A DNA stretch of 64,000 nt from Streptomyces fulvoviolaceus (GTDB lineage Bacteria > Actinomycetota > Actinomycetes > Streptomycetales > Streptomycetaceae). The stretch is taken from positions 1 through 64,000 of the forward strand of contig NZ_JOEY01000005.1 of NCBI RefSeq assembly GCF_000718165.1, in the 5' to 3' direction. Below the pieces are notes generated by a model, which worked only from the letters and a program-made list of their open reading frames with translations, made no database searches and was not told the DNA's origin. Position 1 is the first letter of the stretch; the number at the start of each line of letters is the position of its first letter. This document shows, piece by piece, positions 15,797-48,914 of the stretch. The translations under genes and the position numbers were made by a program.

Positions 15797-15808
15797 CTAC
15801 GCGCGTAG
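15797..15808. promoter_or_regulatory. Nucleoside-regulon operator CTACGCGCGTAG (punA)
   Basis: This is a perfect 12-bp palindrome 25 bases before the GTG start of the purine nucleoside phosphorylase gene. A -10-like TACGCT follows at 15821-15826, so a bound protein would cover the -35 side of the promoter. The same site precedes deoC, add and the nucleoside transporter genes. Confidence 0.8.
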
Positions 15809-15833
15809 GCCCTGACCGGCTACGCTCATCCGC

Positions 15834-16670
15834 GTGAACGCATCTCTTCTTCCGGACGACATCCAGGGCGCCACCCCCAATGAGCCACGGGTCGCCGCCG
15901 ACGCCGCCGCCGCGCGCCTGCGCGAACTGACCGGCGCCGAGACCCACGACGTCGCCCTCGTGATGGGCTCCGGCTGGGCGCCGGCCGTGGACGCCCTCGG
16001 CGCTCCCGACGCCGAGTTCGAGGTCACCGAGCTGCCCGGTTTCCCGCCGCCGGCGGTGGAGGGACACGGCGGCAAGATCCGCTCGTACAAGATCGGCAAC
16101 AAGCGGGCCCTGGTCTTCCTCGGCCGTACGCACTACTACGAGGGTCGCGGTGTCGCCGCCGTCGCACACGGCGTCCGCACCGCCGTCGCCGCCGGCTGCA
16201 AGACGATGGTGTTGACGAACGGCTGTGGCGGTCTCCGCGAGGGCATGCGCCCCGGCCAGCCGGTCCTGATCAGCGACCACATCAACCTGACCGCCGCGTC
16301 TCCGATCATCGGCGCGAACTTCGTCGACCTCACCGACCTCTACTCCCCGCGTCTGCGCGCCCTGTGCAAGGAGATCGACGCGACGCTGGAGGAGGGTGTC
16401 TACGCCCAGTTCCCCGGCCCGCACTACGAGACTCCGGCCGAGATCCGCATGGCCCGCGTCATCGGGGCGGACCTGGTGGGCATGTCGACGGTCCTGGAAG
16501 CGATTGCTGCGCGTGAGGCGGGTGCCGAGGTTCTGGGTATCTCCCTGGTGACGAACCTGGCGGCGGGCATGACGGGCGAGCCGTTGAACCACGAGGAGGT
16601 CCTCCAGGCGGGCCGGGACAGCGCGACGCGCATGGGCTCGCTGCTGGCGCAGGTGCTGGACCGGCTGTAG
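15834..16670 (+). CDS. punA: Purine-nucleoside phosphorylase (trimeric class)
   Basis: The 278-residue enzyme belongs to the trimeric PunA/human-PNP class: [11 protein letters not shown] holds the phosphate-binding serine, GHGGKIRSY and [10 protein letters not shown] follow, and [14 protein letters not shown] and [16 protein letters not shown] form the purine and ribose pockets. It splits inosine and guanosine, and the deoxy forms, with phosphate to base plus (deoxy)ribose-1-phosphate. Streptomyces annotation often calls it deoD, but the fold class is not that of E. coli DeoD. No ribosome site precedes the GTG; TACGCT lies seven bases upstream, which fits a leaderless mRNA. The ribose-1-phosphate can pass to the mutase encoded next. 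Confidence 0.93.
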
Positions 16671-16686
16671 CCGAAGCGGAGTTTTT

Positions 16687-16872
16687 CGCCCCCGCCGCCC
16701 CTACCCGTCCCGTCCTTCTGGGGCTCCGCCCCAGACCCCGCTCCTCAAACGCCGGAGAGGCTGAGTTGTTTCAGCCCGTCCGGCGTTTGAGGACGAGGCC
16801 CTTTCAGGGCCGAAGCGGGGGTCTGGGGGCGGCAGCCCCCAGGGACGGGACGGGTAGGGGCGGCGGGGGCGA
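16687..16872. repeat. 186-bp snap-back intergenic repeat, copy 1
   Basis: The outer 29 bases at each end are perfect reverse complements (starting CGCCCCCGCCGCCCCTACCC), and inner segments pair again around TTCAGCCCG, so the entire element can fold into one long hairpin. A near-identical copy lies at 37540-37720. It fills the gap between punA and the mutase gene and contains no gene. Confidence 0.85.
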
Positions 16873-16933
16873 GAAAAGCCCGGCGCGAACCCCCACCCAC
16901 CTCCTCACACACCACACGAGAGGTTGACCCGAC

Positions 16934-18565
16934 GTGCACGACGATCTCATCGCACGAGCCAAGACATGGCTGGCCGAGGACCCCGACACGGACACCCGTG
17001 ACGAACTCGCCAAGCTCATCGAGGCCGGAGACGTCACCGAACTCGCCGCCCGCTTCAGCGGCACCCTCCAGTTCGGCACGGCGGGCCTGCGGGGCGAGCT
17101 CGGCGCCGGCCCCATGCGGATGAACCGCAGCGTCGTCATCCGCGCCGCGGCCGGTCTCGCCGCGTACCTCAAGAAGAAGGGCCAGACGGACGGCCTCGTC
17201 GTCATCGGCTACGACGCCCGCCACAAGTCCGCCGACTTCGCCCGCGACACCGCGGCCGTGATGACCGGCGCCGGCCTCAAGGCAGCGGTCCTCCCCCGCC
17301 CCCTCCCCACCCCCGTCCTCGCCTACGCCATAAGGCACCTCGGCGCGGTGGCCGGCGTAGAGGTCACCGCCAGTCACAACCCGCCCCGCGACAACGGCTA
17401 CAAGGTCTACCTCGGCGACGGCTCCCAGATCGTCCCGCCCGCCGACGCGGAGATCGCAGCGGAGATCGACGCGATCCGCAGCCTCAACGACGTCCCCCGC
17501 CCCACCACCGGCTGGGAAACCCTCGACGACAGCGTCCTCGACGCGTACCTGGCCCGCACGGACGCCGTACTGGCGGCGAACTCCCCCCGCACCGCCCGCA
17601 CCGTCTACACGGCCATGCACGGAGTCGGCAAGGAAACCCTCCTCGCGGCCTTCGCCCGAGCCGGCTTCCCGCAGCCCGTCCTCGTCACCGAACAGGCCGA
17701 CCCCGACCCGGACTTCCCCACCGTCGCCTTCCCCAACCCGGAAGAGCCCGGCGCGATGGACCTCGCCTTCGCGAAGGCGAGCGAGACGAACCCCGACCTG
17801 ATCATCGCCAACGACCCGGACGCGGACCGCTGCGCGGTGGCGGTGAAGACCGGCAACGACTGGCGCATGCTGAGGGGCGACGAAGTGGGGGCGCTCCTCG
17901 CCGTGCACCTCGTCCGCCGCGGCGCCCAGGGAACCTTCGCCGAGTCGATCGTCTCCTCCTCCCTCCTCGGCCGTATCGCCGAGAAGGCGAACCTCCCCTA
18001 CGAGGAGACCCTCACCGGCTTCAAGTGGATCGCCCGGGTGGACGGCCTCCGCTACGGCTACGAGGAGGCCCTCGGCTACTGCGTGGACCCCGAGGGCGTA
18101 CGCGACAAGGACGGCATCACGGCGGCCCTCCTCATCACGGAACTGGCCTCCGAGCTCAAACAAGACAATCGCACCCTCCTCGACCTCCTCGACGACATCG
18201 CGGTCGAGTACGGCCTGCACGCCACGGACCAGCTCTCCGCCCGCGTCGAGGACCTGTCGATCATCGCGAACGCGATGCAGCGGCTCCGCGAGCACCCCCC
18301 GACCGAGCTCGCCGGCCTGCCCATCACCCGCGCCGAGGACCTGACCCAGGGCACGGACAAGCTCCCGCCCACGGACGGCCTGCGCTACACCCTGGACGGC
18401 GCCCGCGTCATCGTCCGCCCCAGCGGCACGGAGCCGAAGCTCAAGTGCTACCTGGAGGTCGTCGTCCCGGTGCCCACGCACGCGGACCTGCCGACGGCCC
18501 GCACCACCGCGACCGACCTGCTGGAGTCGATCAAGCGAGACCTGTCGGCGGCAGCAGGCCTCTAA
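16934..18565 (+). CDS. Phosphohexomutase (phosphoglucomutase/phosphomannomutase family)
   Basis: The 543-residue protein has the four-domain alpha-D-phosphohexomutase architecture. The phosphoserine loop is VTASHNPPRDNGYKVY (about residue 145), the metal loop NDPDADRCAVA (about residue 293), and the phosphate-binding loop RPSGTEPKLKCYL near the C-terminus. It interconverts hexose-1- and -6-phosphates; because it follows a nucleoside phosphorylase it may instead move phosphate on ribose or deoxyribose, as PGM2-like enzymes do. The GTG start has GAGAGG upstream. A clear terminator follows. Confidence 0.9.
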   Translation: MHDDLIARAKTWLAEDPDTDTRDELAKLIEAGDVTELAARFSGTLQFGTAGLRGELGAGPMRMNRSVVIRAAAGLAAYLKKKGQTDGLVVIGYDARHKSADFARDTAAVMTGAGLKAAVLPRPLPTPVLAYAIRHLGAVAGVEVTASHNPPRDNGYKVYLGDGSQIVPPADAEIAAEIDAIRSLNDVPRPTTGWETLDDSVLDAYLARTDAVLAANSPRTARTVYTAMHGVGKETLLAAFARAGFPQPVLVTEQADPDPDFPTVAFPNPEEPGAMDLAFAKASETNPDLIIANDPDADRCAVAVKTGNDWRMLRGDEVGALLAVHLVRRGAQGTFAESIVSSSLLGRIAEKANLPYEETLTGFKWIARVDGLRYGYEEALGYCVDPEGVRDKDGITAALLITELASELKQDNRTLLDLLDDIAVEYGLHATDQLSARVEDLSIIANAMQRLREHPPTELAGLPITRAEDLTQGTDKLPPTDGLRYTLDGARVIVRPSGTEPKLKCYLEVVVPVPTHADLPTARTTATDLLESIKRDLSAAAGL

Positions 18566-18573
18566 GGCCCGAC

Positions 18574-18606
18574 GGGGTGCCCCTCCGTACGAGAGAGGGG
18601 CACCCC
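18574..18606 (+). terminator. Terminator after the phosphohexomutase gene
   Basis: GGGGTGCCCCTC and its exact complement form a 12-bp stem with a 9-base loop, starting eight bases after the stop codon. Confidence 0.85.
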
Positions 18607-18714
18607 ATCGGGTGATTTGCACACGACGGCTGACCCAGGCTCCCCGCCCCACCGCACCCCCCGGGCAACGGTGGACGGACACCGCACCACCGAGCCAGCC
18701 CTGGAGCCGTCACC

Positions 18715-19884
18715 GTGTCCTCGACCGCATTCCGGCCGACACCGAACGAAGCGACCACAGCCCCGAGCGAATCCGGCACAGGCTCCGCGCGCCCCCGCGT
18801 CCCCGCCCCCGTGCAAGCCCTCCTCGCCTACGTCGCCGTACGCACCACGGGCCTCCTGTTCCTCACCCTCTGGGCGCACCGCCAACACCACGGCGTGTGG
18901 CCGATCCTGGCGACACAGTGGGACTCGGACTGGTACCTGGGCATCGCCGACCACGGTTACGCACAAGAACTCGGCACCGCCGGAAGCAACCTGGCGTTCT
19001 TCCCGCTCTACCCGGTCCTGGTCAAGGCGGTCGCGGTAGTCACCCCCGGCACCCGCGCCACCACCGGCCTGTGCATCGCGGTCATCGCCTCGCTCATCGC
19101 GGCCCGGGGCATCTTCGCCGTCGGCGACCGCCTGTACGGCCCCCGTGTCGGCATCCTCCTCACCACCCTCTGGGCCGCGCTCCCGGTCGGCCTGGTGCAG
19201 TGGATGGGTTACACCGAGTCCCTGTTCACGGCGTGCGCGGCCTGGGCGCTGTACGCCGTGCTCACCCGCCGCTGGCTCTGGGCAGGATCGCTGGCCGTGC
19301 TCGCGGGCCTGACCCGCCCGACCGGCATCGCGGTGGCGGCCGCGGTCACCGTGACGGCGTTGCTCTCCCTGCGCCGCGGCTTCTCCGCACGAGCGCTCGC
19401 GGCCGCCGTCCTCGCCCCGCTCGGCTGGTGCGCGTACCTCGCCTGGGTGGGCCTGCGAGTGGGCCGCTGGGACGGCTACTTCGCCGAACAACGGTTGTGG
19501 AGCAACGAGATGGACGGCGGCATGCGGACCCTGCGGGAGATGCGCCACCTGTTGGCGAGGGACTCGACACCTCATCTGTTCCTGGTGATGGTGACGCTCG
19601 TGCTGATCGCCTCGGTGGCACTGTTCGCGCTGTCGGTGCGGGACCGCCAGCCCCTCGCCCTGCTGGTCTTCACCGGCGTACTGCTGGTCATCGTCCTGAG
19701 CAGCGGCGGCGTCTACTTCCCCCGCGCCCGGTACCTGCTCCCGGCCTTCCCGCTCCTGCTTCCCCTGGCCCTGCGCCTCTCCCGCGCCGCCCGCCGCCAC
19801 CGCGTCCTCGTCCTCACGGCAGCGGTGGCGAGCTCGGCGTACTGGGGCGCGCACATGGCCCTGGTGTGGCCGGGCGCGCCGTGA
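18715..19884 (+). CDS. PIG-V-like integral membrane mannosyltransferase
   Basis: The 389-residue protein has about nine to ten transmembrane helices. After the first helix it shows QWDSDWYLGIADHGY, and then NLAFFPLYPVLV, both characteristic of the PIG-V/GPI-mannosyltransferase-2-like family, whose acidic loop residues are catalytic. QWMGYTESLFTACAAWALYA is a further family motif. It probably transfers mannose from a polyprenyl-phosphate donor to an outer-surface acceptor; the acceptor is unknown. I start at GTG 18715 (MSSTAFRP). The ~35 N-terminal residues are disordered. The upstream terminator makes it a separate transcription unit. Confidence 0.75.
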   Translation: MSSTAFRPTPNEATTAPSESGTGSARPRVPAPVQALLAYVAVRTTGLLFLTLWAHRQHHGVWPILATQWDSDWYLGIADHGYAQELGTAGSNLAFFPLYPVLVKAVAVVTPGTRATTGLCIAVIASLIAARGIFAVGDRLYGPRVGILLTTLWAALPVGLVQWMGYTESLFTACAAWALYAVLTRRWLWAGSLAVLAGLTRPTGIAVAAAVTVTALLSLRRGFSARALAAAVLAPLGWCAYLAWVGLRVGRWDGYFAEQRLWSNEMDGGMRTLREMRHLLARDSTPHLFLVMVTLVLIASVALFALSVRDRQPLALLVFTGVLLVIVLSSGGVYFPRARYLLPAFPLLLPLALRLSRAARRHRVLVLTAAVASSAYWGAHMALVWPGAP

Positions 19885-19890
19885 TCGGGC

Positions 19891-21576: not shown

Positions 21577-21704
21577 GGATTCCCAGACACTCGGACCACA
21601 AAGGTGGTTGCGGTCCTCGGTTCCGTGTCCGGGTGGGGGGCTGCCGTTACGGCCGAGGTGAGGGCCGCATCATGCCGGGCGAAGCTGTGAAAGGCGAGGG
21701 CCGG

Positions 21705-22385
21705 TCAGCCCACCGCGAGCAGCACCGCCAGCAGCACCGCTCCGGCCACCGCGGGCGCCGCGACCTCGTACGCCCAGCGCACGGTCACCTCGCCCTGGGA
21801 CGTCTCCGCCTTCGTGCGCATCTCCAGCAGCTCGCGCAGGTCGTCCATGATCCGGTCGGCCTCGGCGCGGGTGGGTCCGGCGTCGGGCACCGGCGTCCGC
21901 CCGCCGAACGTGTCGCCGCGCATCCCGCCGAACCCCCCGAACATGCCCCCGGGCGCCCGCCCGCGACCGCCGCCCGCGCTCTGCCTCGCCTGCTGGCGGG
22001 CCGCCTTCTTCCGTCCCCGCAGGGACACCGGAATGGCCCAGAGCTGGTACTTGGTTCCGGACTTGGCGAGCACCTCGTTCGAGTAGCCGGAGCGCAGCGT
22101 CTCGGTCTCGCCCCAGGGCAGGGTGATCACCCGGAACGGGTTGCGGATGCGCAGGCGGTCGTTGTTCGCGAAGACGGCGGGGCGCAGGGTGAAGGCGACC
22201 ACCAGCGGCACGACGAAGATCATCGTGGCGAGCGCGAGCCACGGTGTGTTGCCCGTCCCCGAGATCACCGCGTCGATGCCGAGCCAGCCGATGATGACCA
22301 GCAGCAGAAAGCCGCCGATCATGCCCGCGGGCGACCGGTAGATCCGGTCCTTGGACTCGGGTGACTGGTGATCCTGGGTCGTCAT
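21705..22385 (-). CDS. PH domain-containing membrane protein
   Basis: The 226-residue protein has an N-terminal pair of helices (MIGGFLLLVIIGWLGIDAVI and a second nearby), followed by a bPH_6-type domain: RPAVFANNDRLRIRNPFRVI, then LPWGETETLRSG and TKYQLWAIPVSLRGRK. A basic, glycine-rich linker follows, and a last hydrophobic helix ends the protein. Many actinobacteria carry this family without a known function. ATG start at 22385. It is divergent from deoC. Confidence 0.75.
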   Translation of the reverse strand: MTTQDHQSPESKDRIYRSPAGMIGGFLLLVIIGWLGIDAVISGTGNTPWLALATMIFVVPLVVAFTLRPAVFANNDRLRIRNPFRVITLPWGETETLRSGYSNEVLAKSGTKYQLWAIPVSLRGRKKAARQQARQSAGGGRGRAPGGMFGGFGGMRGDTFGGRTPVPDAGPTRAEADRIMDDLRELLEMRTKAETSQGEVTVRWAYEVAAPAVAGAVLLAVLLAVG

Positions 22386-22580: not shown

Positions 22581-22592
22581 CTACGCGCGTAG
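22581..22592. promoter_or_regulatory. Nucleoside-regulon operator CTACGCGCGTAG (deoC)
   Basis: The palindrome is perfect and ends one base before a -10-like TATGCT (22594-22599), which is itself six bases from the GTG start. Occupancy would block the promoter directly. Confidence 0.82.
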
Positions 22593-22605
22593 ATATGCTC
22601 GGCTG

Positions 22606-23571
22606 GTGACCATGCCCACCACTGCATCTCCCGCACACTCGCTTACGGACGTCGCCGCGTCCGACAGCACGCTGCGCCGCTTCCTCCACGGACTGCCCGG
22701 CGTGGACGCGGTCGGCCTGGAGGCGCGCGCCGCCTCGCTCGGCACCCGTTCCATCAAGACCACCGCGAAGGCGTACGCCATCGACCTCGCCATCTCGATG
22801 GTCGACCTGACGACGCTGGAAGGCGCGGACACCCCGGGCAAGGTCCGGGCGCTCGGCGCCAAGGCGGTCCGCCCCGATCCGACCGACCGTACGACCCCCG
22901 CCACGGCCGCGGTCTGCGTCTACCCGGACATGGTGACCGTGGCCAAGGAGGCCGTCGCCGGTTCCGGCGTCAAGGTCGCCTCCGTCGCCACCGCCTTCCC
23001 GGCCGGCCGCGCCGCCCTCGACGTCAAGCTGGCCGACGTGCGTGACGCCGTCGCCGCGGGCGCCGACGAGGTCGACATGGTCATCGACCGCGGGGCGTTC
23101 CTCGCGGGCCACTACATGAAGGTGTACGACGAGATCGTCGCCGTCCGCGAGACCTGCGGGACCTCCGCCCGTCTGAAGGTCATCTTCGAGACCGGCGAGC
23201 TGTCGACGTACGACAACATCCGCCGCGCGAGCTGGCTCGGCATGCTGGCCGGCGCGGACTTCATCAAGACGTCGACCGGCAAGGTCGCCGTCAACGCGAC
23301 CCCCCCGAACACCCTGTTGATGCTGGAAGCCGTACGCGACTTCCGCGCGCAGACCGGCATCCAGGTCGGCGTGAAGCCCGCAGGTGGCATCAGGACGACC
23401 AAGGACGCCATCAAGTTTCTCGTACTGGTCAACGAGACCGTCGGCGAGGACTGGCTGGACAACCACTGGTTCCGCTTCGGCGCCTCCTCGCTCCTGAACG
23501 ACCTGCTGATGCAGCGTCAGAAGCTGGCCACCGGCCGCTACTCCGGCCCCGACTACGTGACGGTGGACTGA
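22606..23571 (+). CDS. deoC: Deoxyribose-phosphate aldolase
   Basis: The 321-residue class I aldolase cleaves 2-deoxyribose-5-phosphate into glyceraldehyde-3-phosphate and acetaldehyde. The Schiff-base lysine lies in GADFIKTSTGK (about residue 225), and the second catalytic lysine in VGVKPAGGIRT. EVDMVIDRGAFLAG is also conserved. An extra ~60 N-terminal residues relative to E. coli DeoC is usual for this larger class. The GTG at 22606 fits a leaderless message; an ATG two codons later is an alternative. Five bases separate it from the aldehyde dehydrogenase gene, whose product can remove the acetaldehyde. Confidence 0.93.
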   Translation: MTMPTTASPAHSLTDVAASDSTLRRFLHGLPGVDAVGLEARAASLGTRSIKTTAKAYAIDLAISMVDLTTLEGADTPGKVRALGAKAVRPDPTDRTTPATAAVCVYPDMVTVAKEAVAGSGVKVASVATAFPAGRAALDVKLADVRDAVAAGADEVDMVIDRGAFLAGHYMKVYDEIVAVRETCGTSARLKVIFETGELSTYDNIRRASWLGMLAGADFIKTSTGKVAVNATPPNTLLMLEAVRDFRAQTGIQVGVKPAGGIRTTKDAIKFLVLVNETVGEDWLDNHWFRFGASSLLNDLLMQRQKLATGRYSGPDYVTVD

Positions 23572-33098: not shown

Positions 33099-34262
33099 TC
33101 AGCCTTCCGAATCCACAGAACCGCTGGTGGAAGCGGTTTGCTGGAACAGCCATTCGGACTTCAGCTCGGCATATCCAGGCTTGATGACGTCATTGATCAT
33201 CGCCAGTCGTTCATCGAAAGGAATGAACGCTGATTTCATCGCATTGACGGAGAACCACTGGAGATCTTCGAGCGTGTAACCGAACGCCTCGACAAGGTGC
33301 TCGAATTCCCGGCTCATGCTGGTCCCGGACATCAGCCGGTTGTCGGTGTTCACGGTCGCCCGGAAGTGCAGCCGCCGCAGCAGCCCGATCGGGTGCTCGG
33401 CGTACGAGGATGCCGCCCCGGTCTGGAGGTTGGAACTGGGGCACAGCTCGAGCGGGATGCGCTTGTCCCGTACGTACGAGGCGAGCCGGCCGAGCTTGAC
33501 CGAGCCGTCCTCGTGGACCTGGATGTCGTCGATGATGCGCACGCCGTGCCCCAGCCGGTCGGCGCCGCACCACTGCAGGGCCTGCCAGATGGACGGCAGC
33601 CCGAAGGCCTCGCCGGCGTGGATGGTGAAGTGGTTGTTCTCGCGCTTGAGGTACTCGAACGCGTCGAGGTGCCGGGTGGGCGGGTAACCGGCCTCGGCGC
33701 CCGCGATGTCGAAGCCGACGACACCCAGGTCCCGGTAGCGGTTGGCCAGTTCGGCGATCTCCAGGGCGCGGGCCGCGTGCCGCATGGCGGTGAGCAGGGC
33801 ACCGACGCGGATGCGCTGGCCGTTCTCCCGCGCACGCCGCTCGCCTTCCCGGAAGCCCTCGTTGACGGCCTCGACGACCTCTTCGAGGGCCAGGCCCTTT
33901 TCGAGGTGCTGCTCGGGGGCGTACCGCACCTCGGCGTAGACGACGCCGTCCTCGGCGAGGTCCTCGGCGCACTCGGCGGCGACCCGGACGAGGGCGTCGC
34001 GGGTCTGCATGACGCCGACGGTGTGGGAGAAGGTCTCCAAGTACCGTTCCAGGGAACCGGAGTCGGCGGCTTCACGGAACCAGACGCCGAGCTTGTCCGG
34101 GTCGTTGTCGGGGAGCTGGGAGTAGCCCGTCTCGCGGGCCAGGTCGACGATCGTGCCGGGGCGCAGCCCGCCGTCGAGGTGGTCGTGCAGCAGAACCTTG
34201 GGCGCCCGGCGGATCTGGTCCGAGCTCGGGGAGGCCCCCGTCCGGTCAGTCTGGCTCGTCAT
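33099..34262 (-). CDS. add: Adenosine deaminase
   Basis: The 387-residue enzyme deaminates adenosine and deoxyadenosine to inosine and deoxyinosine. Zinc and substrate residues are seen in [15 protein letters not shown] (about residue 25), [13 protein letters not shown], and [12 protein letters not shown]; the late [12 protein letters not shown] replaces the more usual NTDDP. Products feed the purine phosphorylase encoded 17 kb away. The ATG has no ribosome site; TAGAGT lies six bases before it, which fits a leaderless mRNA. The nucleoside palindrome sits directly upstream of that box. Confidence 0.94.
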
Positions 34263-34278: not shown

Positions 34279-34290
34279 CTACGCGCGTAG
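34279..34290. promoter_or_regulatory. Nucleoside-regulon operator CTACGCGCGTAG (add)
   Basis: A perfect palindrome lies 17 bases before the add start. On the minus strand it is followed after four bases by TAGAGT, the likely -10 box, so binding would cover the promoter core. Confidence 0.82.
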
Positions 34291-40344: not shown

Positions 40345-41628
40345 TCAGGCGATCCGCTCCAGCACCACCGGCGACGCGGTGAAGTCGGTGCCCGCCGCTG
40401 CGATGTCGTAGGACCCCTCCACCGCCTGCAGCGCGTACTCGAAGCGGTCCGGGGTGTCCGTGTGGAGGGTCAGCAGGGGCTGGCCCTCGGTCACCGTGTC
40501 GCCCGGCTTGGCGTGCATCTCGACGCCGGCGCCCGCCTGCACCGGGTCCTCCTTGCGGGCGCGGCCGGCGCCCAGGCGCCAGGCGGCGATGCCGATGTCG
40601 TAGGCGTCGAGGCGGGTCAGGACGCCCGAGGCGCCCGCCTTCACCACGTGCTGCTCACGGGCCACCGGCAGCTCGGCGTCCGGGTCGCCGCCCTGGGCCG
40701 CGATCATCCGGCGCCAGACGTCCATCGCCGAGCCGTCGGCCAGGGCCTTGGCCGGGTCGGCGTCCTTCACGCCGGCCGCGTCGAGCATCTCGCGGGCCAG
40801 GGCGATGGTCAGCTCCACCACATCGGAAGGGCCGCCGCCGGCCAGTACCTCGACCGACTCACGGACCTCCAGGGCGTTGCCCGCCGTCAGGCCCAGCGGG
40901 GTCGACATGTCCGTCAGGAGCGCGACCGTCTTCACGCCGTGGTCGGTGCCGAGGCCCACCATCGTGGACGCCAACTCCCGTGCGTCCTCGATGGTCTTCA
41001 TGAAGGCGCCCGTGCCGACCTTCACGTCCAGGACCAGGGAGCCGGTGCCCTCCGCGATCTTCTTCGACATGATCGACGAGGCGATCAGGGGGATCGCCTC
41101 GACCGTGCCGGTCACGTCCCGGAGCGCGTACAGCTTCTTGTCCGCGGGGGCCAGGCCGTCGCCCGCCGCGCAGATCACCGCGCCCGTGGTGTCGAGGACG
41201 TGCAGCATCTCCTCGTTGGAGAGCAGCGCGCGCCAGCCCGGGATCGACTCCAGCTTGTCCAGCGTGCCGCCGGTGTGGCCGAGGCCCCGGCCGGACAGCT
41301 GGGGAACAGCGGCACCGCAGGCCGCGACCAGCGGGGCCAGCGGGAGGGTGATCTTGTCACCGACGCCACCCGTGGAGTGCTTGTCCGCGGTCGGGCGGGA
41401 CAGCGAGGAGAACTCCATGCGCTCGCCGGAGGCGATCATCGCGGCCGTCCAGCGGGCGATCTCACTGCGGTTCATGCCGTTGAGCAGGATGGCCATGTTC
41501 AGGGCGGCCATCTGGTAGTCGGCGACCTCCCCACGCGTGTACGCGTCGATGACCCAGTCGATCTGCTCGTCGCTGAGCTCACCGCGGTCCCGCTTGGTGC
41601 GGATGACGGAGATGGCGTCCATGCCCAT
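40345..41628 (-). CDS. deoA: Thymidine phosphorylase
   Basis: The 427-residue enzyme converts thymidine and phosphate to thymine and deoxyribose-1-phosphate. The phosphate and substrate residues lie in ADKHSTGGVGDKITLPL (about residue 85) and SGRGLGHTGGTLDKLES (about residue 117), with SSIMSKKIAEGTG near residue 190. The ATG at 41628 has GGAAGGAAAG about five bases upstream. It is the last gene of the transporter operon, 82 bases after cdd, with a hairpin in the gap. Deoxyribose-1-phosphate can enter the DeoC route after mutase action. Confidence 0.94.
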   Translation of the reverse strand: MGMDAISVIRTKRDRGELSDEQIDWVIDAYTRGEVADYQMAALNMAILLNGMNRSEIARWTAAMIASGERMEFSSLSRPTADKHSTGGVGDKITLPLAPLVAACGAAVPQLSGRGLGHTGGTLDKLESIPGWRALLSNEEMLHVLDTTGAVICAAGDGLAPADKKLYALRDVTGTVEAIPLIASSIMSKKIAEGTGSLVLDVKVGTGAFMKTIEDARELASTMVGLGTDHGVKTVALLTDMSTPLGLTAGNALEVRESVEVLAGGGPSDVVELTIALAREMLDAAGVKDADPAKALADGSAMDVWRRMIAAQGGDPDAELPVAREQHVVKAGASGVLTRLDAYDIGIAAWRLGAGRARKEDPVQAGAGVEMHAKPGDTVTEGQPLLTLHTDTPDRFEYALQAVEGSYDIAAAGTDFTASPVVLERIA

Positions 41629-41710: not shown

Positions 41711-42148
41711 TTACTTGGTGAGATGCCCCGGCCCGAAGGCCTGCGGCAGCATCTCCGACAGCGGCAGGATCCCCGCCGGGGTCTCCAGGAGCAGACCCGG
41801 GCCGCCGAACTCGTACAGCAGCTGCCGGCAGCGGCCGCACGGGACGAGGATCTCGCCCCTGCCGTCGACGCAGGTGAAGTGCGTCAGCCGGCCGCCGCCG
41901 GTGTTCTGCAGCTCCGAGACCAGTCCGCACTCGGCGCACAGGCCGATTCCGTACGAGGCGTTCTCGACGTTGCAGCCGGAGACCGTACGGCCGTCGTCGA
42001 CCAGGGCCGCCACGCCGACCGGGTAGCCGGAGTACGGGGCGTACGCCCGGGACATGGCGTCCCGGGCCACCGACCGCAGCTTCTCCCAGTCGACCGCGGA
42101 GACCGCGGAGACCTCAGAGACCCCGGAACCGGACTCGGGCGAGGTCAC
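41711..42148 (-). CDS. cdd: Cytidine deaminase
   Basis: The 145-residue enzyme turns cytidine and deoxycytidine into uridine and deoxyuridine. The catalytic and zinc motifs are CNVENASYG, CAECG and PCGRCRQ. AYAPYSGYPVGVAA precedes them. The GTG start at 42148 overlaps the permease stop as GTGA, so translation is coupled to uptake. The N-terminal ~18 residues (rich in Ser and Glu) are an extension compared with short homologues; a later start is possible. Confidence 0.92.
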   Translation of the reverse strand: MTSPESGSGVSEVSAVSAVDWEKLRSVARDAMSRAYAPYSGYPVGVAALVDDGRTVSGCNVENASYGIGLCAECGLVSELQNTGGGRLTHFTCVDGRGEILVPCGRCRQLLYEFGGPGLLLETPAGILPLSEMLPQAFGPGHLTK

Positions 42149-43407
42149 TTCCCTTGTCCCTTCCGATACGGCATACCGTCCGCCTTCGGCATCCGCAGTC
42201 GCTGCGCGGAGAGCGAGAGCACCAGCAGGGTGATGACGTACGGCGTGGCGGTGACGACCTGGTTCGGGACCTCGTTCGTGGTGGCGTACCACACGAACAT
42301 CAGGGCCGAGATGGCGGCGGTGACGGCGGCGGGGACGTACTTCTTCTTCCACGCCAGGTAGAGCACGCCGACGAGCAGCAGGATCGCGAGCAGCAGGATC
42401 AGCGCGTGGACGTTGGTCACGCCACCGCGCAGCTTGAGGCTGTCGGTGTAGCCGAACAGGCCCGCGCCGAGGGCGAGTCCGCCCGGCATCCAGTTGCCGA
42501 AGATCATCGCGGCGAGGCCGATGTAGCCGCGGCCTGCCGTCTGGCCGTCGAGGTACACGTTGGACGCCACGATCGACAGGAAGGCGCCGCCGAGGCCGGC
42601 GAAGCCGCCGGAGATGATCACGGCGAGGTACTTGTACTTGATGACGTTGACGCCGAGGGACTCGGCCGCGATCGGGTTCTCACCGCAGGACCGCAGGCGC
42701 AGGCCGAAGGACGTGCGCCACAGCACGTACCAGGTGGCGGGTACGAGGGCCACCGCGATGACGGTGAGCGGCGACAGGTCGGTGATCAGACCGCCGACCA
42801 GGCCGGCGATGTCGGAGATCAGGAACCAGTGCTTGTCGTTGAGGGTCTCCAGCCAGCTGGACAGGCCCGGAACGTCGAAGGTGCCGAGCGACTCGATCGG
42901 CGGGGACTGCTTGGAGGAGCCCTGCGGGGCCTCCTCGAAGGTGAACTTCGACAGGTAGCGGGTGGTGCCCAGCGCCAGGATGTTCAGGGCCACACCGGAG
43001 ACGATGTGGTTGACGTTGAAGGTCACGGTGGCGATGGCGTGCAGGACGGCGCCGAGCGCGCCGCCGACGATGCCGACGAGGACGCCGGTCCAGGGGCCCC
43101 ACTGATAGCCGGCCCAGGCGCCGAACCAGGTGCCGAGGATCATCATGCCCTCGAGGCCGATGTTGACGACGCCTGCGCGCTCGGCCCACAGACCGCCGAG
43201 GCCCGCGAGGCCGATCGGCACGGCGGAGCGCAGTGCGGTCGACATCTGGCCGGTCGAGGTGATGCCGTCCGCACCGGTGATCAGACGGACGACGGACGTC
43301 AGGATCAGCACGCCCGAGATGATCAGCAGGAGGACGGGGAGCGAGATCCGGCGGCTGCCCTTGCCGGGCTGCTTCGCGAGCGCCTTGGCGATGGTCGCGG
43401 TGCTCAT
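42145..43407 (-). CDS. Nucleoside ABC transporter permease (YufQ-like)
   Basis: The 420-residue protein has about ten helices and the BPD_transp_2 motif GLWAERAGVVNIGLEGMMIL (about residue 80), typical of the second permease in Bmp-type nucleoside importers. EAPQGSSKQSPP marks a periplasmic-side loop and GENPIAAESLGVNV the cytoplasmic coupling region. It overlaps the first permease as ATGA and cdd as GTGA. Substrates are inferred from the salvage genes in the same operon. Confidence 0.9.
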   Translation of the reverse strand: MSTATIAKALAKQPGKGSRRISLPVLLLIISGVLILTSVVRLITGADGITSTGQMSTALRSAVPIGLAGLGGLWAERAGVVNIGLEGMMILGTWFGAWAGYQWGPWTGVLVGIVGGALGAVLHAIATVTFNVNHIVSGVALNILALGTTRYLSKFTFEEAPQGSSKQSPPIESLGTFDVPGLSSWLETLNDKHWFLISDIAGLVGGLITDLSPLTVIAVALVPATWYVLWRTSFGLRLRSCGENPIAAESLGVNVIKYKYLAVIISGGFAGLGGAFLSIVASNVYLDGQTAGRGYIGLAAMIFGNWMPGGLALGAGLFGYTDSLKLRGGVTNVHALILLLAILLLVGVLYLAWKKKYVPAAVTAAISALMFVWYATTNEVPNQVVTATPYVITLLVLSLSAQRLRMPKADGMPYRKGQGK

Positions 43408-44528
43408 CAGACCGCCACCTCCTTCTTGGTGTTCTGGGCGGCGGCCGCGGCCAGTTCCTCACCGACGCGCTTCTGCTGGCGGCGCAGACCCCAGGAGCGG
43501 ACGACCTCGTAGGAGATGACGACCGCGAACACGATCAGGCCCTGCATGATCGTCGCGATCTCCTTCTCGTACGGCGTCGGGATCGCGTAGTCGAGAGCGG
43601 GGGACGCCTTGTCGAGGAAGGCCCACAGCAGGGCGGCGAGTGCGATGCCGCCGGGGTTGTTGCGGCCGAGCAGGGCGATGCCGATGGCGGTGAAGCCGAG
43701 TCCGGCCGGGAAGCTGAGGCTGTAGGTGTGGGCGTCGCCCAGGAGCAGCGGGAGGCCGGAGATGCCGGCGACCCCGCCGGAGATGAGCATCGCGGTGAGG
43801 ACCATGCGCTTGGCGTTGACGCCGGAGGCCGCGGCGGCGGTCTCGGACTCGCCGGTGGCGCGCAGGTCGAAGCCGAAGCGGGTGCGGTTGAGGACGACCC
43901 AGTAGGCGATGCCGACGGCGACGGCGAGGAAGACCAGGCCGTAGATCTCGCCGACGTCGGCGCCCAGGTCGATGCCGGGGACCCAGCCGGACTCCTTCAT
44001 CACGCCGGTCGTGACGTTGTCGCCGACCAGCACACCGAAGTTGTCGCGGAGGCTGAGGTAGCCGATGACGCTGGTGGCGATCGCGTTCAGCATGATCGTC
44101 GAGACGACCTCGCTGACACCCCGGGTGACCTTCAGGACGCCCGCGACGCCGGCCCACATGGCGCCGGTGAGGGCACCGACGAGCAGCAGCAGCGGGATCT
44201 GGAGGAAGGACGGCAGCGCCACGTGCGCGCCGACCACGGCGGTCATGAAGGCGCCCAGGCGGTACTGGCCGTCGACGCCGATGTTGAAGAGGTTCATACG
44301 GAAGCCGAGGGCGACCGCGAGCGCGGCGATGTAGTACATCGACGCCTGGTTGATGATCAGTACCTGCACGTCGGAGAACCCGGCCTGCTCGATCATCAGG
44401 CTGTACGGCTCGATCGGGTTCTTGCCGGAGGCGATCAGCACGACCGAGGTCAGCAGGATCGCCGCGACGAGCGCCATGACCGGTCCGGCCACGGCGAGGA
44501 GCACGCGCTCCTTGTCGAACTTCTTCAT
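43407..44528 (-). CDS. Nucleoside ABC transporter permease (YufP-like)
   Basis: The 373-residue protein has nine to ten helices, with ALGFRMNLFNIGVDGQYRLG (about residue 80), the motif of the first permease of this class, and ATGESETAAAASGVNAKRMV as the ATPase-contact loop. It overlaps both neighbours by four bases (ATGA). With the ATPase and the other permease it should form the membrane part of a nucleoside importer. Confidence 0.9.
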   Translation of the reverse strand: MKKFDKERVLLAVAGPVMALVAAILLTSVVLIASGKNPIEPYSLMIEQAGFSDVQVLIINQASMYYIAALAVALGFRMNLFNIGVDGQYRLGAFMTAVVGAHVALPSFLQIPLLLLVGALTGAMWAGVAGVLKVTRGVSEVVSTIMLNAIATSVIGYLSLRDNFGVLVGDNVTTGVMKESGWVPGIDLGADVGEIYGLVFLAVAVGIAYWVVLNRTRFGFDLRATGESETAAAASGVNAKRMVLTAMLISGGVAGISGLPLLLGDAHTYSLSFPAGLGFTAIGIALLGRNNPGGIALAALLWAFLDKASPALDYAIPTPYEKEIATIMQGLIVFAVVISYEVVRSWGLRRQQKRVGEELAAAAAQNTKKEVAV

Positions 44529-46189
44529 CGGGCCTCGTCCTCCGGGGCGGCTTCTGCGCCTTCTACATCGCCGTCTTCTACGTGCTCCAGGTGACCGGAC
44601 GCGGCACCGGTCATGGCCGAGCCCAGTTCCTCGGGAGTGATGGTGGCGGGGTCCGCGTCGGCGACCAGCCTGCCGTCGTAGATCACCCGCAGGGTGTCCG
44701 ACAGGCCGATCAGCTCGTCCAGGTCCGCGGAGATCAGCAGGACGGCCAGACCCTCGCGGCGGGCCTCGCGGATCCGGTCCCAGATCTGCGCCTGCGCGCC
44801 GACGTCCACACCGCGGGTGGGGTGGGCGGCGATCAGGAACTTCGGGTTGTGGCTCATCTCGCGGCCGACGATCAGCTTCTGCTGGTTGCCGCCGGAGAGG
44901 GAGGCCGCGGTGACGTCGATGCCGGGGGTGCGGACGTCGTACTGCTCGACGATCCGGCGCGTGTCCTCCTGGGCGCCCTTCGGGTTCAGCCAGAAGCCCT
45001 TGGCGTTGGGCGTCTCGGTGACGTGGCCGAGGATGCGGTTCTCCCAGAGGGGGGCCTCCAGGAGCAGGCCCTGGCGGTGGCGGTCCTCGGGGATGTAGCC
45101 GACGCCGGACTCGCGGCGCCTGCGGGTGGGCCAGGGGGTGATGTCCTCGCCGAGGAAGGCGATCGTGCCGGAGTCGGCGTTCTTGGTGCCGATCAGGGCG
45201 TCGATGAGTTCGGTCTGGCCGTTGCCCTCGACGCCGGCGATGCCCATGACCTCGCCGGCGTGGATGGTGAAGGTGACGTCGTCGAGGACCTTCTTGACCT
45301 CGGCGCGGTTCACCTCGTCCATGAGCAGACCGGCGGACGACTCACCGAGCGACACCGCGCCCGAGGAGTAGACGGTGAGGCCCGCGACGCCGATGACGGG
45401 CTTGTCGGTGACCGTCGACTCGGCGGTCTCCGGGGTGGGCAGCTCGCTGCCGACCATCATCTCGGCGAGCTGGCGCGGCGTGGTCTCGGCGGGGACGGCG
45501 GTGCCGACCGTCGTGCCGCGGCGAATCACGGTGATCTCGTCGGCCACCGACAGGACCTCGCCGAGCTTGTGCGAGATGAAGATGACCGAGAGGCCCTCGG
45601 ACTTGAGCTCGCGCAGGTTGGCGAAGAGCGCGTCGACCTCCTGCGGGACGAGGACGGCGGTCGGCTCGTCGAGGATCAGGATGCGGGCGCCGCGGTAGAG
45701 GACCTTGAGGATCTCCACGCGCTGGCGGTCGGCGACGCCGAGGTCCTCGACCAGGGCGTCGGGGCGGACGCCGAGGCCGTAGCGGTCGGAGATCTCCTTG
45801 ATCTTCCTGCGGGCGCCGCCGCCGATGCCGTACAGCTTCTCGCTGCCCAGCACCACGTTCTCCAGGACCGTGAGGTTGTCGGCGAGCATGAAGTGCTGGT
45901 GGACCATGCCGATGCCGCGGACGATGGCGTCGGCGGGGCTGGAGAAGGTCACCTTGTCGCCGTCGACCGCGATGGTGCCCTCGTCCGGCTTCTGCATGCC
46001 GTAGAGGATCTTCATCAGGGTCGACTTGCCGGCGCCGTTCTCACCGACGAGGGCGTGCACGGTGCCCTTTCGGACAGACAGGTGGATGTCGTGGTTGGCG
46101 ACGACACCCGGGAACCGCTTGGTGATCCCCGCCAGCTCGACCGCGATCGTCGACTGATCGGTGAGCGGAGGGCTGCTGGTCGCGTCGAT
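44525..46189 (-). CDS. Nucleoside ABC transporter ATP-binding protein, apparent ATC start
   Basis: The ~554-residue protein has two fused ABC domains, as in YufO/RbsA-type transporters: first Walker A GENGAGKSTLMK, Walker B ILILDEPTAVLVP, and in the second half AGVEGNGQTELI with LSGGNQQKLIVG. The nearest standard start in frame, GTG at 46060, would begin only a few residues before Walker A and would remove the first beta strands (VELAGITKRFPGVVANHDI). Upstream there is no in-frame ATG, GTG or TTG; instead AAGGAGA is followed after about eight bases by ATC-GAC-GCG. I therefore place the start at this ATC, with the caveat that a sequence error could hide a normal codon. Confidence 0.85.
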   Translation of the reverse strand: MDATSSPPLTDQSTIAVELAGITKRFPGVVANHDIHLSVRKGTVHALVGENGAGKSTLMKILYGMQKPDEGTIAVDGDKVTFSSPADAIVRGIGMVHQHFMLADNLTVLENVVLGSEKLYGIGGGARRKIKEISDRYGLGVRPDALVEDLGVADRQRVEILKVLYRGARILILDEPTAVLVPQEVDALFANLRELKSEGLSVIFISHKLGEVLSVADEITVIRRGTTVGTAVPAETTPRQLAEMMVGSELPTPETAESTVTDKPVIGVAGLTVYSSGAVSLGESSAGLLMDEVNRAEVKKVLDDVTFTIHAGEVMGIAGVEGNGQTELIDALIGTKNADSGTIAFLGEDITPWPTRRRRESGVGYIPEDRHRQGLLLEAPLWENRILGHVTETPNAKGFWLNPKGAQEDTRRIVEQYDVRTPGIDVTAASLSGGNQQKLIVGREMSHNPKFLIAAHPTRGVDVGAQAQIWDRIREARREGLAVLLISADLDELIGLSDTLRVIYDGRLVADADPATITPEELGSAMTGAASGHLEHVEDGDVEGAEAAPEDEAR

Positions 46190-46218
46190 GGCGCACTCTC
46201 CTTGGGAAAGGGGCCACT

Positions 46219-46230
46219 CTACGCGCGTAG
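46219..46230. promoter_or_regulatory. Nucleoside-regulon operator CTACGCGCGTAG (transporter operon)
   Basis: A perfect palindrome is found 29 bases upstream of the ATPase start. Read on the minus strand its last bases run into TAGAGT, a -10-like box, so operator and promoter overlap. It gives the ATPase-permease-cdd-deoA operon its own switch, apart from the Bmp genes. Confidence 0.82.
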
Positions 46231-46306
46231 CGCCCCTGCTTTAAATAGTGCCCGGACCTGATCGGTTCTTTTCGAGAGCCGATCTGTTCCGAGCATTGTG
46301 CCGCTC

Positions 46307-46345
46307 GAACGGGGCGTGAGAAGCCATCCTCCTCACACCCCGTTC
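46307..46345 (-). terminator. Hairpin after the first bmp gene
   Basis: GAACGGGGCGTGAG pairs with CTCACACCCCGTTC with a single mismatch. It lies about 70 bases past the stop of the bmp gene and upstream of the ATPase operon promoter. It probably terminates the bmp transcript. Confidence 0.65.
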
Positions 46346-46413
46346 CGTGGCCGTAACGCTGCCATTACAGGGCCTTTTTGGCCAAGCCCCGTACCGGCTT
46401 CGTGACCGGAAGG

Positions 46414-47463
46414 TCAGGAGGTCTTCACCGTGATGGAGCCGTCCTTGATGCCTTCCTCGGCCTTCTTGATCGCGTCCTGGATCGCGGTGTTGTCCGCGAA
46501 GGTCGGGTTGGAGTTCGACAGGCTCACGCCGCCGTTGTCCAGGCTGCCGCGGATCTCACCGGTCTCCGGCTTGCCGTCCTTGACGGACTTGGCCAGCTCG
46601 TAGACAGCGCCCTCGACGTTCTTCATGGCCGAGGTGAGGATCGAGTCCTTGTACGCGGCCAGCGCGGTCTGCTTGTACTGGTCCGAGTCGACGCCGATCG
46701 CCCAGATCTTGTGCGCGGCGGCGGCCTTGATGACGCCCTGGCCGGAGAGACCGGCGGCCGCGTAGACCACGTCGGCGCCGTCGTCGATCTGACCCTCGGC
46801 CGCGCTCTCGCCCTTGTCCGGGCTGGAGAAGCCACCCTCGGCGGCGGTCTCGGTCAGGTACTGCGACTGGACCTTGACGCCCTTCTTGGTGTCCTCGACG
46901 CCCTGCTTGAAGCCGGCCTCGAACTTGTGGATGAGCGGGACGTCCACGCCGCCGACGAAGCCGACGGTGTTGGTCTTGGTGGCCTTGGCGGCGGCGACGC
47001 CGGCGAGGTAGGAGGCCTGCTCCTCGTGGAAGACGAGGTTGGCGACGTTCTTCTCCGTGAAGGAGTTGTCGTCGACGATGCCGAAGGTGGTGTCCGGGTA
47101 CTTGGAGGCGACCTCCTTGACGGCCGGCGCGTACGCGAAGCCGACGCCGATCACCGGGTTGTAGCCCTGCTTGGCGAGGGTCTCCAGACGCTGGGTCTTG
47201 TCCGCGTCGGACTCGCCGTCCTGCGGCTCGACGGCGGTGGACTTGTAGCCGAACTCCTTGTCGGCCTTGTCCAGGCCGGCGGTCGCGGCGTCGTTGAAGG
47301 ACTGGTCACCCTTGCCACCGACGTCGTACGCCAGGGCGAGGCCAAGGTTCTTGTCGCTGTCACTGCTGCTGGACTCGCTGGACGAGCTGCCGCAGGCGGA
47401 CACGGTCAGTGCAAGGGCTGCGGCAGCAACGCCTGCAACCGTGAAACGGGACACCCGGCGCAT
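46414..47463 (-). CDS. Bmp-family nucleoside-binding lipoprotein 1
   Basis: The 349-residue protein has a lipoprotein signal (VAAAALALTVSACGSSSS), then a Ser/Asp linker and a Bmp domain: LGLALAYDVGGKGDQSFNDA, VGFVGGVDVPLIHKFEAGF and AIGVDSDQYKQTALAAYKDS. It should be the extracytoplasmic receptor for the nearby nucleoside importer, as in BmpA/PnrA and YufN. ATG at 47463 with AAAGGAG nine bases upstream. It has its own palindrome upstream. It is about two-thirds alike, by eye, with the second Bmp protein. Confidence 0.92.
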   Translation of the reverse strand: MRRVSRFTVAGVAAAALALTVSACGSSSSESSSSDSDKNLGLALAYDVGGKGDQSFNDAATAGLDKADKEFGYKSTAVEPQDGESDADKTQRLETLAKQGYNPVIGVGFAYAPAVKEVASKYPDTTFGIVDDNSFTEKNVANLVFHEEQASYLAGVAAAKATKTNTVGFVGGVDVPLIHKFEAGFKQGVEDTKKGVKVQSQYLTETAAEGGFSSPDKGESAAEGQIDDGADVVYAAAGLSGQGVIKAAAAHKIWAIGVDSDQYKQTALAAYKDSILTSAMKNVEGAVYELAKSVKDGKPETGEIRGSLDNGGVSLSNSNPTFADNTAIQDAIKKAEEGIKDGSITVKTS

Positions 47464-47518
47464 GGAACGAGACTCCTTTGTGCAAGCGCCCAAACCAGGC
47501 GCTGGTTCCGCCGCAGCG

Positions 47519-47530
47519 TAACGCGCGTAG
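47519..47530. promoter_or_regulatory. Nucleoside-regulon operator, one substitution (bmp1)
   Basis: TAACGCGCGTAG on the plus strand reads CTACGCGCGTTA in the direction of the gene; one end deviates from the perfect palindrome. It is continued by TACGCT-like sequence, a possible -10. It lies 56 bases before the bmp1 start. Confidence 0.75.
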
Positions 47531-47606
47531 ACCAGACGGAAAACCCCAACTGTCCGGTCCGTTATCGAGCTGTGGCCACAGTTGTAGGCACAGAGTACGG
47601 ACAGCA

Positions 47607-47637
47607 GTACGCCCCTTGCAGGAGGCAAGGGGCGTAC
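47607..47637. terminator. Terminator-like hairpin between the bmp genes
   Basis: GTACGCCCCTTGC pairs perfectly with GCAAGGGGCGTAC across a five-base loop. It lies about 100 bases beyond the end of the second bmp gene and upstream of the bmp1 promoter, separating the two units. Confidence 0.75.
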
Positions 47638-47737
47638 AGCTGCAACGATGCCCTGGTGGGCGTATGAAAGGCGGAATTCAGGCGTCCGTCGTTGTTACGT
47701 GGTCTTGACCCCGACTACAAGATCTTGACCGTGACGA

Positions 47738-48817
47738 CTACGAGGTCTTGACCGTGACCTTGCCGTCGATGATCTCCTGCTTGGCCGCGTCGACCGCCGC
47801 GACGACGTCCGTCATCGCCTTGTACTTCGGGTTGGAGTCGGCGAAACCGACACCGCCGGTCTTCAGGGTGCCGCGCTGGACACCGCTGAGCGGCTTGCCC
47901 TCGTAGACGGACTTGGCGAGGTCGTAGACCGCGCCGCCGACGTTCTTGAGCGCCGAGCCGAGGATGTAGTCCTTGTACTTGGCCAGCGCGCTCTGGCTGT
48001 ACTGGTCGGAGTCGACGCCGATGGCCCACACCTTCTTGGCGGCGGCCTCGGAGATCACGCCCTGACCGGACAGGCCGGCCGCGTGGTAGATGACGTCGGC
48101 GCCCTTCTCGATCTGGCCGCTGGCCGCCTCCTTGCCCTTGTCCGGGCTGGAGAAGCCGCCCTCCTGGGGCGTCTCGGTCAGGTACTGCGACTCGATGGTG
48201 ATGCTCGGGTCGACGGACTTGACGCCCTGCTCGAAGCCCGCACCGAACTTGTGGATGAGCGGGATGTCCACACCGCCGATGAAGCCGACGTGCTTCTTCT
48301 TGGTGGCCTTGGCGGCGGCGACGCCGGCGAGGTAGGAGGCCTGCTCCTCGCTGAAGACCATGTCGGCGACGTTGGTCGCCTTGACCGTCTCGTCGTCGAT
48401 GATGCCGAAGGTGACGTTGGGGTACTTGGTGGCGACCTCCTTGACGGCGGTCGCGTAGATGTAGCCGACACCGATCACCGGGTTGTAGCCGGCCTTGGCC
48501 AGCTGCTCCAGGCGCTGCACCTTGTCGGCGTCGGACTCGCCGTCCTGCGGCTCGATGTCCGTGCCGCCGAACCCGAACTCCTTGTCGGCCTTCTCGAAGC
48601 CGGCGTAGGCGGCGTCGTTGAACGACTGGTCGCCCTTGCCGCCGATGTCGTACGCCAGGCCGATCCCCTTGCCCGAGTACTTGCCGGACGCCGACGACGA
48701 CGCGTCGTCGCTGCCCGCGTCCTTGCTGGAGCCGCCGCAGCCGACGGCCGTGAGTGCGATGACCGCGACGGCCACCACAGCTTGGGAGAACCTCGTCCTC
48801 CTGGATATCTGACGCAC
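47738..48817 (-). CDS. Bmp-family nucleoside-binding lipoprotein 2
   Basis: The 359-residue protein has a lipoprotein signal (AVVAVAVIALTAVGCGGSSK) and a Bmp domain almost colinear with its neighbour: IGLAYDIGGKGDQSFNDAAY, VGFIGGVDIPLIHKFGAGF and AIGVDSDQYSQSALAKYKDY. I choose the GTG at 48817 (VRQISRRTRF), eight bases after GAAGGGG. Two tandem receptors for one transporter may widen the nucleoside range. It has its own operator and a terminator, so the two receptors can be expressed independently. Confidence 0.92.
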   Translation of the reverse strand: MRQISRRTRFSQAVVAVAVIALTAVGCGGSSKDAGSDDASSSASGKYSGKGIGLAYDIGGKGDQSFNDAAYAGFEKADKEFGFGGTDIEPQDGESDADKVQRLEQLAKAGYNPVIGVGYIYATAVKEVATKYPNVTFGIIDDETVKATNVADMVFSEEQASYLAGVAAAKATKKKHVGFIGGVDIPLIHKFGAGFEQGVKSVDPSITIESQYLTETPQEGGFSSPDKGKEAASGQIEKGADVIYHAAGLSGQGVISEAAAKKVWAIGVDSDQYSQSALAKYKDYILGSALKNVGGAVYDLAKSVYEGKPLSGVQRGTLKTGGVGFADSNPKYKAMTDVVAAVDAAKQEIIDGKVTVKTS

Positions 48818-48902
48818 AGCAAGCACCCCTTCGTCCCCACGGATCCGTCGCCGGTCCGCTCTTCCCCAAGTCGCCGCCGAGGGCAGCGATTTCGGCGCAC
48901 AG

Positions 48903-48914
48903 TAACGCGCGTAG
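48903..48914. promoter_or_regulatory. Nucleoside-regulon operator, one substitution (bmp2)
   Basis: TAACGCGCGTAG, read CTACGCGCGTTA toward the gene, is the same variant as at bmp1. TACTGT follows directly and may be the -10 box. It lies 86 bases before the start. Confidence 0.75.

Follow-up and report, generated by a model that had tools for sequence, protein, structure and literature searches.

The stretch of DNA analysed here, hereafter the window, comprises 64,000 nucleotides of Streptomyces fulvoviolaceus (contig NZ_JOEY01000005.1, positions 1 to 64,000). It carries genes for nucleoside uptake and salvage, six of whose promoters contain either the 12-base-pair (bp) palindrome CTACGCGCGTAG or a variant of it, TAACGCGCGTAG. 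The original prediction, made from the letters alone, had proposed that this palindrome is the shared regulatory site of these genes. The sites and the genes concerned are the following.

15797..15808: exact palindrome CTACGCGCGTAG, putative operator of the purine phosphorylase gene, 37 bp from its start codon and upstream of a -10 box (TACGCT)
15834..16670, plus strand: purine-nucleoside phosphorylase superfamily gene (PNP; PNP_UDP_1; PF01048)
22581..22592: exact palindrome CTACGCGCGTAG, putative operator of deoC, 25 bp from its start codon and followed by a -10 box (TATGCT)
22606..23571, plus strand: deoC, deoxyribose-phosphate aldolase (PF01791)
33099..34262, minus strand: add, adenosine deaminase (PF00962)
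34279..34290: exact palindrome CTACGCGCGTAG, putative operator of add, 28 bp from its start codon, with a -10 box (TAGAGT) on the minus strand
40345..41628, minus strand: deoA, pyrimidine-nucleoside phosphorylase (PF00591, PF07831)
41711..42145 (approximate ends), minus strand: cdd, cytidine deaminase (PF00383)
42145..43407, minus strand: permease 2 of the nucleoside ATP-binding cassette (ABC) transporter (PF02653), with matches in 51 of 138 class genomes
43407..44528, minus strand: nucleoside ABC permease 1; the order bmp-ATPase-permease-permease is found in other actinobacteria
44525..46060 (true start probably slightly upstream), minus strand: nucleoside ABC transporter ATPase (PF00005)
46219..46230: exact palindrome CTACGCGCGTAG, putative operator of the nucleoside ABC operon, its end overlapping a -10 box (TAGAGT; CGCGTAGAGT)
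46414..47463 (start judged by eye), minus strand: bmp1, Bmp/PnrA-type nucleoside-binding lipoprotein (PF02608)
47519..47530: TAACGCGCGTAG, in gene sense CTACGCGCGTTA, two mismatches, putative operator of bmp1, its end forming part of a -10 box (TACGCT)
47738..48805 (approximate start), minus strand: bmp2, second Bmp/PnrA-type lipoprotein (PF02608)
48903..48914: TAACGCGCGTAG, in gene sense CTACGCGCGTTA, two mismatches, putative operator of bmp2, its end forming part of a -10 box (TACTGT)
12599..13564, minus strand: cluster-linked DeoR-family regulator, disfavoured as the reader of the palindrome

The palindrome is real. Its exact form occurs four times in the window, against 0.002-0.0035 copies expected from composition models of order 1 to 4, and any other 12-bp palindrome occurs there at most twice. 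The exact copies at 15797, 22581, 34279 and 46219 stand before the genes originally named, and -10-like boxes are present at all six sites as had been described; the copies at 47519 and 48903, announced as carrying one substitution, each carry two (TAACGCGCGTAG). When up to two mismatches are allowed, the window contains six matches, all at the named nucleoside genes, and the observation that no copy precedes an unrelated gene in the window thus holds, as there is no further match of that quality. The extended 14-bp palindrome TCTACGCGCGTAGA is absent from all 394 class genomes, the genome under study included, and the flanking T and A together are therefore outside the consensus.

Conservation of the site in related Streptomyces promoters, proposed at the outset as a check, is observed and extends to the whole family. 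Exact copies are present in all 61 genus genomes, the present one included, at 2 to 7 per genome (0 to 3 for the reversed pattern), and in 60 of 61 family genomes, representing 16 of 17 genera. In the class sample, all 31 genus members carry exact copies versus 10 of 265 other genomes, nine of these ten having a single copy; G088, the sole genome outside the family with three, shows no evident nucleoside gene at its sites. The distance from site to start codon is constant in the six Streptomyces genomes compared (the present one and five others), at 37 bp for PNP, 25 bp for deoC and 28 bp for add. The ABC-operon site is exact in all four genomes compared (the present one, G402, G400 and G057), and the same four have two copies of the variant TAACGCGCGTAG at their bmp genes. 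The only exact copies of G018, three in number, are those at add, deoC and PNP, its ABC operon being therefore without an exact site. Outside the genus the spacing is not constant; G476 has an exact PNP site 52 bp from the aligned start, G455 has an exact site before add and a one-mismatch form before PNP, and G460, the sole family genome lacking an exact copy, has CTACTCGCGTAG before deoC and TAACGCGCGTAG before PNP. Beyond the family, no site with at most one mismatch was found in 20 stretches containing nucleoside ABC operons. The gene order M20 amidohydrolase-bmp-ATPase-permease-permease-cdd-deoA-add is largely kept in many distant actinobacteria (L118-L137), where the operator is not kept.

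The arrangement of the sites relative to the -10 boxes is informative about their function. Read in gene sense, the site of the ABC operon runs into its -10 box (CTACGCGCG-TAGAGT), as do those of bmp1 (CTACGCGCGT-TACGCT) and bmp2 (CTACGCGCGT-TACTGT), and the -10 boxes of deoC (TATGCT), add (TAGAGT) and PNP (TACGCT) are located farther downstream of the site. The palindrome might be thought to belong to the core promoter recognised by an alternative sigma factor, since by eye the upstream half in gene sense, CTACGC, is usually kept in one-sided variants and the gene-proximal half usually decays, purS being an exception. This explanation is nevertheless very improbable: over the six window promoters, anything between 9 and 24 bp separates the first base of the site from the -10-like box, a spread that suits an operator better than a sigma-factor element, and the core sites have the perfect symmetry expected for binding by a dimer. 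The sites lie against the -10 box or overlap it, as is usual for repressor operators, and a protein bound at the palindrome should, on this geometry, repress.

The regulon is well supported and wider than initially proposed. In the 11.58-Mb genome, the palindrome is found at 7 exact and 36 one-mismatch places, and the initial description of a compact regulon over 33 kb was too narrow, the targets being spread over the whole genome. The surroundings of all 43 places were read, gene starts being judged by eye, and 15 of them are located in the promoters, 14 in all, of genes with a clear nucleic-acid, nucleoside or purine role. These genes are PNP, deoC, add, the ABC operon, a second add, a Xan_ur-type purine permease and purS; there are also three genes of 5'-nucleotidase or cyclic-nucleotide phosphodiesterase type, a GmrSD_C/HNH-type gene, an Exo_endo_phos protein, and two ExeM/NucH-like nucleases, one of them with two sites, whose scores are under NCBI's cut-off. 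Several of the nucleases and nucleotidases look secreted, as judged from their N-termini. In two of the 14 promoters, those of the second add and of the HNH-type gene, the site overlaps the first codons. Five of the 7 exact places precede nucleoside genes, and the other two precede a HAD-type hydrolase and a secreted-looking protein. Related genomes share one conserved site ahead of several nucleoside genes, as for a functional purine/nucleoside regulon. The idea of an operator marking nucleoside uptake and salvage is supported, neither of the two outcomes named beforehand as refuting it being observed.

Twenty exact sites of other family genomes, chosen because they lie outside the main run of sites, were also considered. 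Six, in other genera, precede purN (Formyl_trans_N in all six), three a second add, four an LFDN-type protein, and one each a 5'-nucleotidase gene, a HAD gene and PNP itself; four have no evident link. The two-mismatch places of the S. fulvoviolaceus genome number 262, of which the two in the window and sixteen others were examined; these sixteen (14 with ACGCGCGTAG, 2 with CTNCACGCGTAG) are mostly in coding sequence and were not retained, L098 lying near another OppC-type operon.

Several further observations were made around these sites. A secreted-looking, LFDN-type protein family ([IV]LFDN..[AG]ETAGNADWIISTSQPDP) is repeatedly encoded behind the palindrome (L032, L038, L144, L145, L150, L152), once with two sites 23 bp apart; the members searched have no informative Pfam or NCBIfam assignment, and the protein is possibly a new nucleic-acid-degrading or -binding one. 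Three operons for OppC-type peptide ABC transporters (L028/L115, L046, L098) have variants of the palindrome upstream or nearby. In the second adenosine deaminase gene, the exact palindrome is located within codons 3 to 7 (MTATRVD or MTATRVE), and this is kept in seven genomes (L031:4001, L088, L092, L095, L138, L139, L157). The site before one ExeM/NucH-like nuclease gene (L027:1-2082) also faces a divergent gene for a NIT-domain histidine kinase.

LacI operators have a central CG step. CTACGCGCGTAG has one too, and the LacI genes were surveyed for this reason: 95 genes were counted in six family genomes, 46 loci were fetched and 36 proteins were read. Two LacI orthologue groups are common to the divergent family genomes G472, G461 and G285. 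In group A, the half-site CGCGTAG stands just before the start in all three members. Group B, whose neighbouring gene we take to be hisC-like, has no upstream half-site in its 3 members and was rejected. The promoters of group A were then sampled as the best 80 of at least 576 loci from a scan of named genomes, corresponding to 76 distinct promoters. All 80 loci contain CGCGTAGACT, that is, the half-site fused to a -10 box TAGACT, and its ten positions are invariant over the 76 distinct promoters, as is none of the remaining ones among the 40 upstream positions; for comparison, CGCGTAG is present in 94 of the 13126 windows of 40 bp taken from these loci, group A promoters included. In two species (L272 and L305), the group A promoter has CTGCACGCGTAG. 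The fusion of half-site and -10 box in the ABC operon (CGCGTAGAGT) is the same as in group A promoters.

The S. fulvoviolaceus member of group A (G000:C2:330314-331336) has CCATCCGCGTAGACT in its promoter, and its product is 80% identical to the G285 protein. A GlnR-domain protein is encoded directly ahead of the group A gene in L181, and a protein 96% identical to it is encoded at C2:329394-330065, directly upstream of the S. fulvoviolaceus LacI gene. From the gene order of S. coelicolor, the SCO4158-type gene was presumed to lie near a 5'-nucleotidase gene on contig C2, where it was found. Group A is very probably the orthologue of SCO4158, because both lie behind glnR, SCO4158 being a LacI regulator downstream of glnR/SCO4159 in the accessible part of its description (PMC9739823). 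The S. fulvoviolaceus protein matches PF00356 (N-terminal helix-turn-helix) and PF13377 (C-terminal sensor) above cut-offs, and its nearest solved relatives by profile are CcpA, RbsR and PurR. It does not reach the curated NCBIfam cut-offs of PurR (180.2 bits vs 501), RbsR (NF047341; 185.5 vs 382) or CytR (167.2 vs 436), and it scores below that of UriR. The initial suggestion that a LacI-type gene elsewhere might carry the site in its own promoter is thus borne out in part: the SCO4158-type gene fits, although what it carries is a single half-site and, in most cases, no complete palindrome. As a prediction from sequence, the SCO4158-type LacI protein is most likely the best candidate reader of the palindrome.

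On balance, it is probable that a single dimeric repressor, most likely the SCO4158-type LacI protein, uses CTACGCGCGTAG as its operator and controls a nucleic-acid foraging regulon throughout the family. This regulon would encompass secreted-looking nucleases and nucleotidases, nucleoside and purine uptake, deamination, phosphorolysis, deoxyribose cleavage and single pieces of purine synthesis. The sites, their conservation, the target genes and the half-site are observed; we infer that the SCO4158-type protein would bind there and repress, the dimer at the -10 box blocking RNA polymerase; a product of nucleoside breakdown could be the effector that releases it, and the repressor might control itself weakly through the single half-site of its own promoter.

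One qualification concerns the palindrome itself. Six loose sites (at most two mismatches) are an ordinary number for the window, shuffled sequences having 4.08 on average and at least six in 25 of 100 shuffles, and such sites are fewer in the genome (305) than those of the reversed control pattern (844); the significance of the palindrome comes from its exact copies and their conservation, not from the count of loose sites. Several observations weigh against the proposal. Genomes of several family genera have only a single exact copy each, which does not exceed what the reversed pattern yields in some genomes, and the count alone is therefore not telling there. Among the 43 places, 8 are followed by genes with a possible or unclear connection (PhoX, two LFDN-type proteins with three places, two OppC-first transporter operons, a carbon-nitrogen hydrolase and a HAD hydrolase), and 20 lie in coding sequence or before genes without evident link. 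As regards the group A promoter, most of the 80 copies have a degenerate left half of the site, the -10 box TAGACT accounts for part of the invariance of CGCGTAGACT, and several positions further upstream are more than 90% conserved. Finally, SCO4158 is reported to be abundant when phosphate is limiting (PMC9739823), a condition in which scavenging would be expected to be active, so that an inducible repressor is needed.

The half-site is also shared. Among the 43 other LacI loci, one has it within 350 bp upstream: L242, a different LacI gene of G461 (G461:C123:71184-71321, minus strand), carries the same CGCGTAGACT, which is thus not unique to group A; L242 may be another target, or a second protein that reads the half-site. 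The regulon and operator could then be as described above and the repressor another protein, either an L242-type LacI or a member of another family (GntR, TetR, MarR, IclR, ROK or others), the half-site of the SCO4158-type gene reflecting a mere target gene or CGCGTAGACT being a favoured form of promoter. Sequence does not distinguish an autoregulated regulator from a target gene, and the survey was restricted to LacI, covering 46 of 95 genes in the six genomes. We nevertheless consider another repressor unlikely, given that 42 of the 43 LacI loci outside group A have no upstream half-site, compared with its presence in 3/3 and 80/80 group A loci (the latter the best 80 of at least 576), and that, among the assignable neighbours of the 43 places, no other DNA-binding regulator gene was recognised directly behind a site.

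The cluster-linked DeoR protein (window 12599-13564), which by gene order is of SCO4920 type, could alternatively read the palindrome without controlling itself. It is matched in 61 of 61 family genomes, its gene is beside PNP in the 9 genomes whose clusters were compared, and its helix-turn-helix is nearly invariant in the 36 loci read. Its gene had been reported to lack the site in its own promoter, which proves general: none of 46 family DeoR promoters has a site with at most two mismatches within 260 bp, two have a half-site, and a different element is conserved. In addition, the recognition helix SEVTVRRD is found in homologues of another family (4/4 loci read), in genomes without the exact palindrome and with promoters containing, by eye, GATCG-type repeats; helix and exact site thus do not go together. 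The DeoR protein is for these reasons an improbable reader and was set aside, the SCO4158-type LacI protein being preferred. The DeoR promoter itself (window 13564-13760, L188-L217) has a strongly conserved element around AACTTCTGTTAATTGGTGCAAACTGCTGAAA, immediately ahead of a -10 box (TTACTGT); this element probably serves DeoR itself or another regulator as operator.

Other regulators were rejected. An 83-amino-acid XRE protein encoded beside an exact site (L026) has no match at 1e-5 in the site-bearing genomes G461, G472, G476 and G486; the small XRE gene is linked to a HAD-type hydrolase gene (L026:7998-8332, L155), before which lies an exact palindrome. The promoter of a MarR gene downstream of the purine permease (L045) is without a site, both by eye and by weight-matrix scan. 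No regulator was recognised among 21 unassigned open reading frames neighbouring nucleoside operons outside the family. As a separate observation, OrfB/TnpB-type transposase-like pieces were noticed by eye at window 60835-61206, with a zinc-ribbon motif, and at L339:15295-16608.

The proposed system can be compared with known ones. Like the SCO4158-type candidate, PurR and CytR of E. coli are LacI-family proteins, controlling nucleoside uptake and salvage or purine synthesis genes, and their operators are palindromic with a central CG, the same form as that proposed for the candidate. However, the candidate scores far under their curated cut-offs, the PurR operator ACGCAAACGTTTGCGT is different from CTACGCGCGTAG, and the present regulon adds secreted-looking nucleases and nucleotidases and, as far as the genomes were read, takes in isolated genes of purine synthesis (purS, purN). 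XdhR of S. coelicolor belongs to the TetR family. It is likewise a Streptomyces repressor of purine salvage, acting on the xdh operon, but it is described as responding to ppGpp and controlling xdh and act genes (accessible text of PMC6627660); no link between XdhR and the palindrome was found in the parts of the literature available, and none was tested. UriR, AdeR and HpxR also exert LacI-family control on nucleoside utilisation, but are presented as local regulators in the text available (PMC4052901), in contrast to the present sites, which are spread over the genome.

SCO4158 of S. coelicolor has the same position behind GlnR and belongs to the same family as the candidate. It has no assigned operator, targets or regulon in the portions of the publications examined, one of which suggests that it might regulate glnR (PMC9739823), and it is not mentioned in the main text of the main comparative study of LacI regulons. 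Glucose is described, in the accessible part of the literature, as raising SCO4158 and lowering the DeoR gene SCO4920. The available part of a review of Streptomyces purine metabolism names XdhR and describes no such regulon (PMC6627660). The motif string occurs in two unrelated papers, and no description of the operator or regulon was found in the partly accessible literature searched, a search outside which RegPrecise, preprints and subscription journals lay, so that a published description may exist.

Streptomyces colonies undergo partial lysis at about the stage when antibiotics are produced. In S. coelicolor, nucleases and the adenosine deaminase SCO4901 are together far more abundant than in S. 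lividans, and recycling of nucleic acids at colony lysis has been suggested (accessible part of PMC7244524). The joint abundance fits co-regulation, without showing it. More tentatively, as a possibility that we would stop just short of calling probable, the orphan LacI beside GlnR could be the master repressor of a Streptomycetaceae-wide programme of feeding on DNA and RNA, extending from secreted nucleases via nucleotidases and nucleoside import as far as deoxyribose cleavage and including the adjustment of purine synthesis; nitrogen control, cell lysis and the recycling of nucleic acids would thereby be coupled. With a conserved operator tying nucleases to nucleoside salvage and a named candidate beside GlnR, the control of recycling becomes directly testable, and SCO4158 would gain targets.

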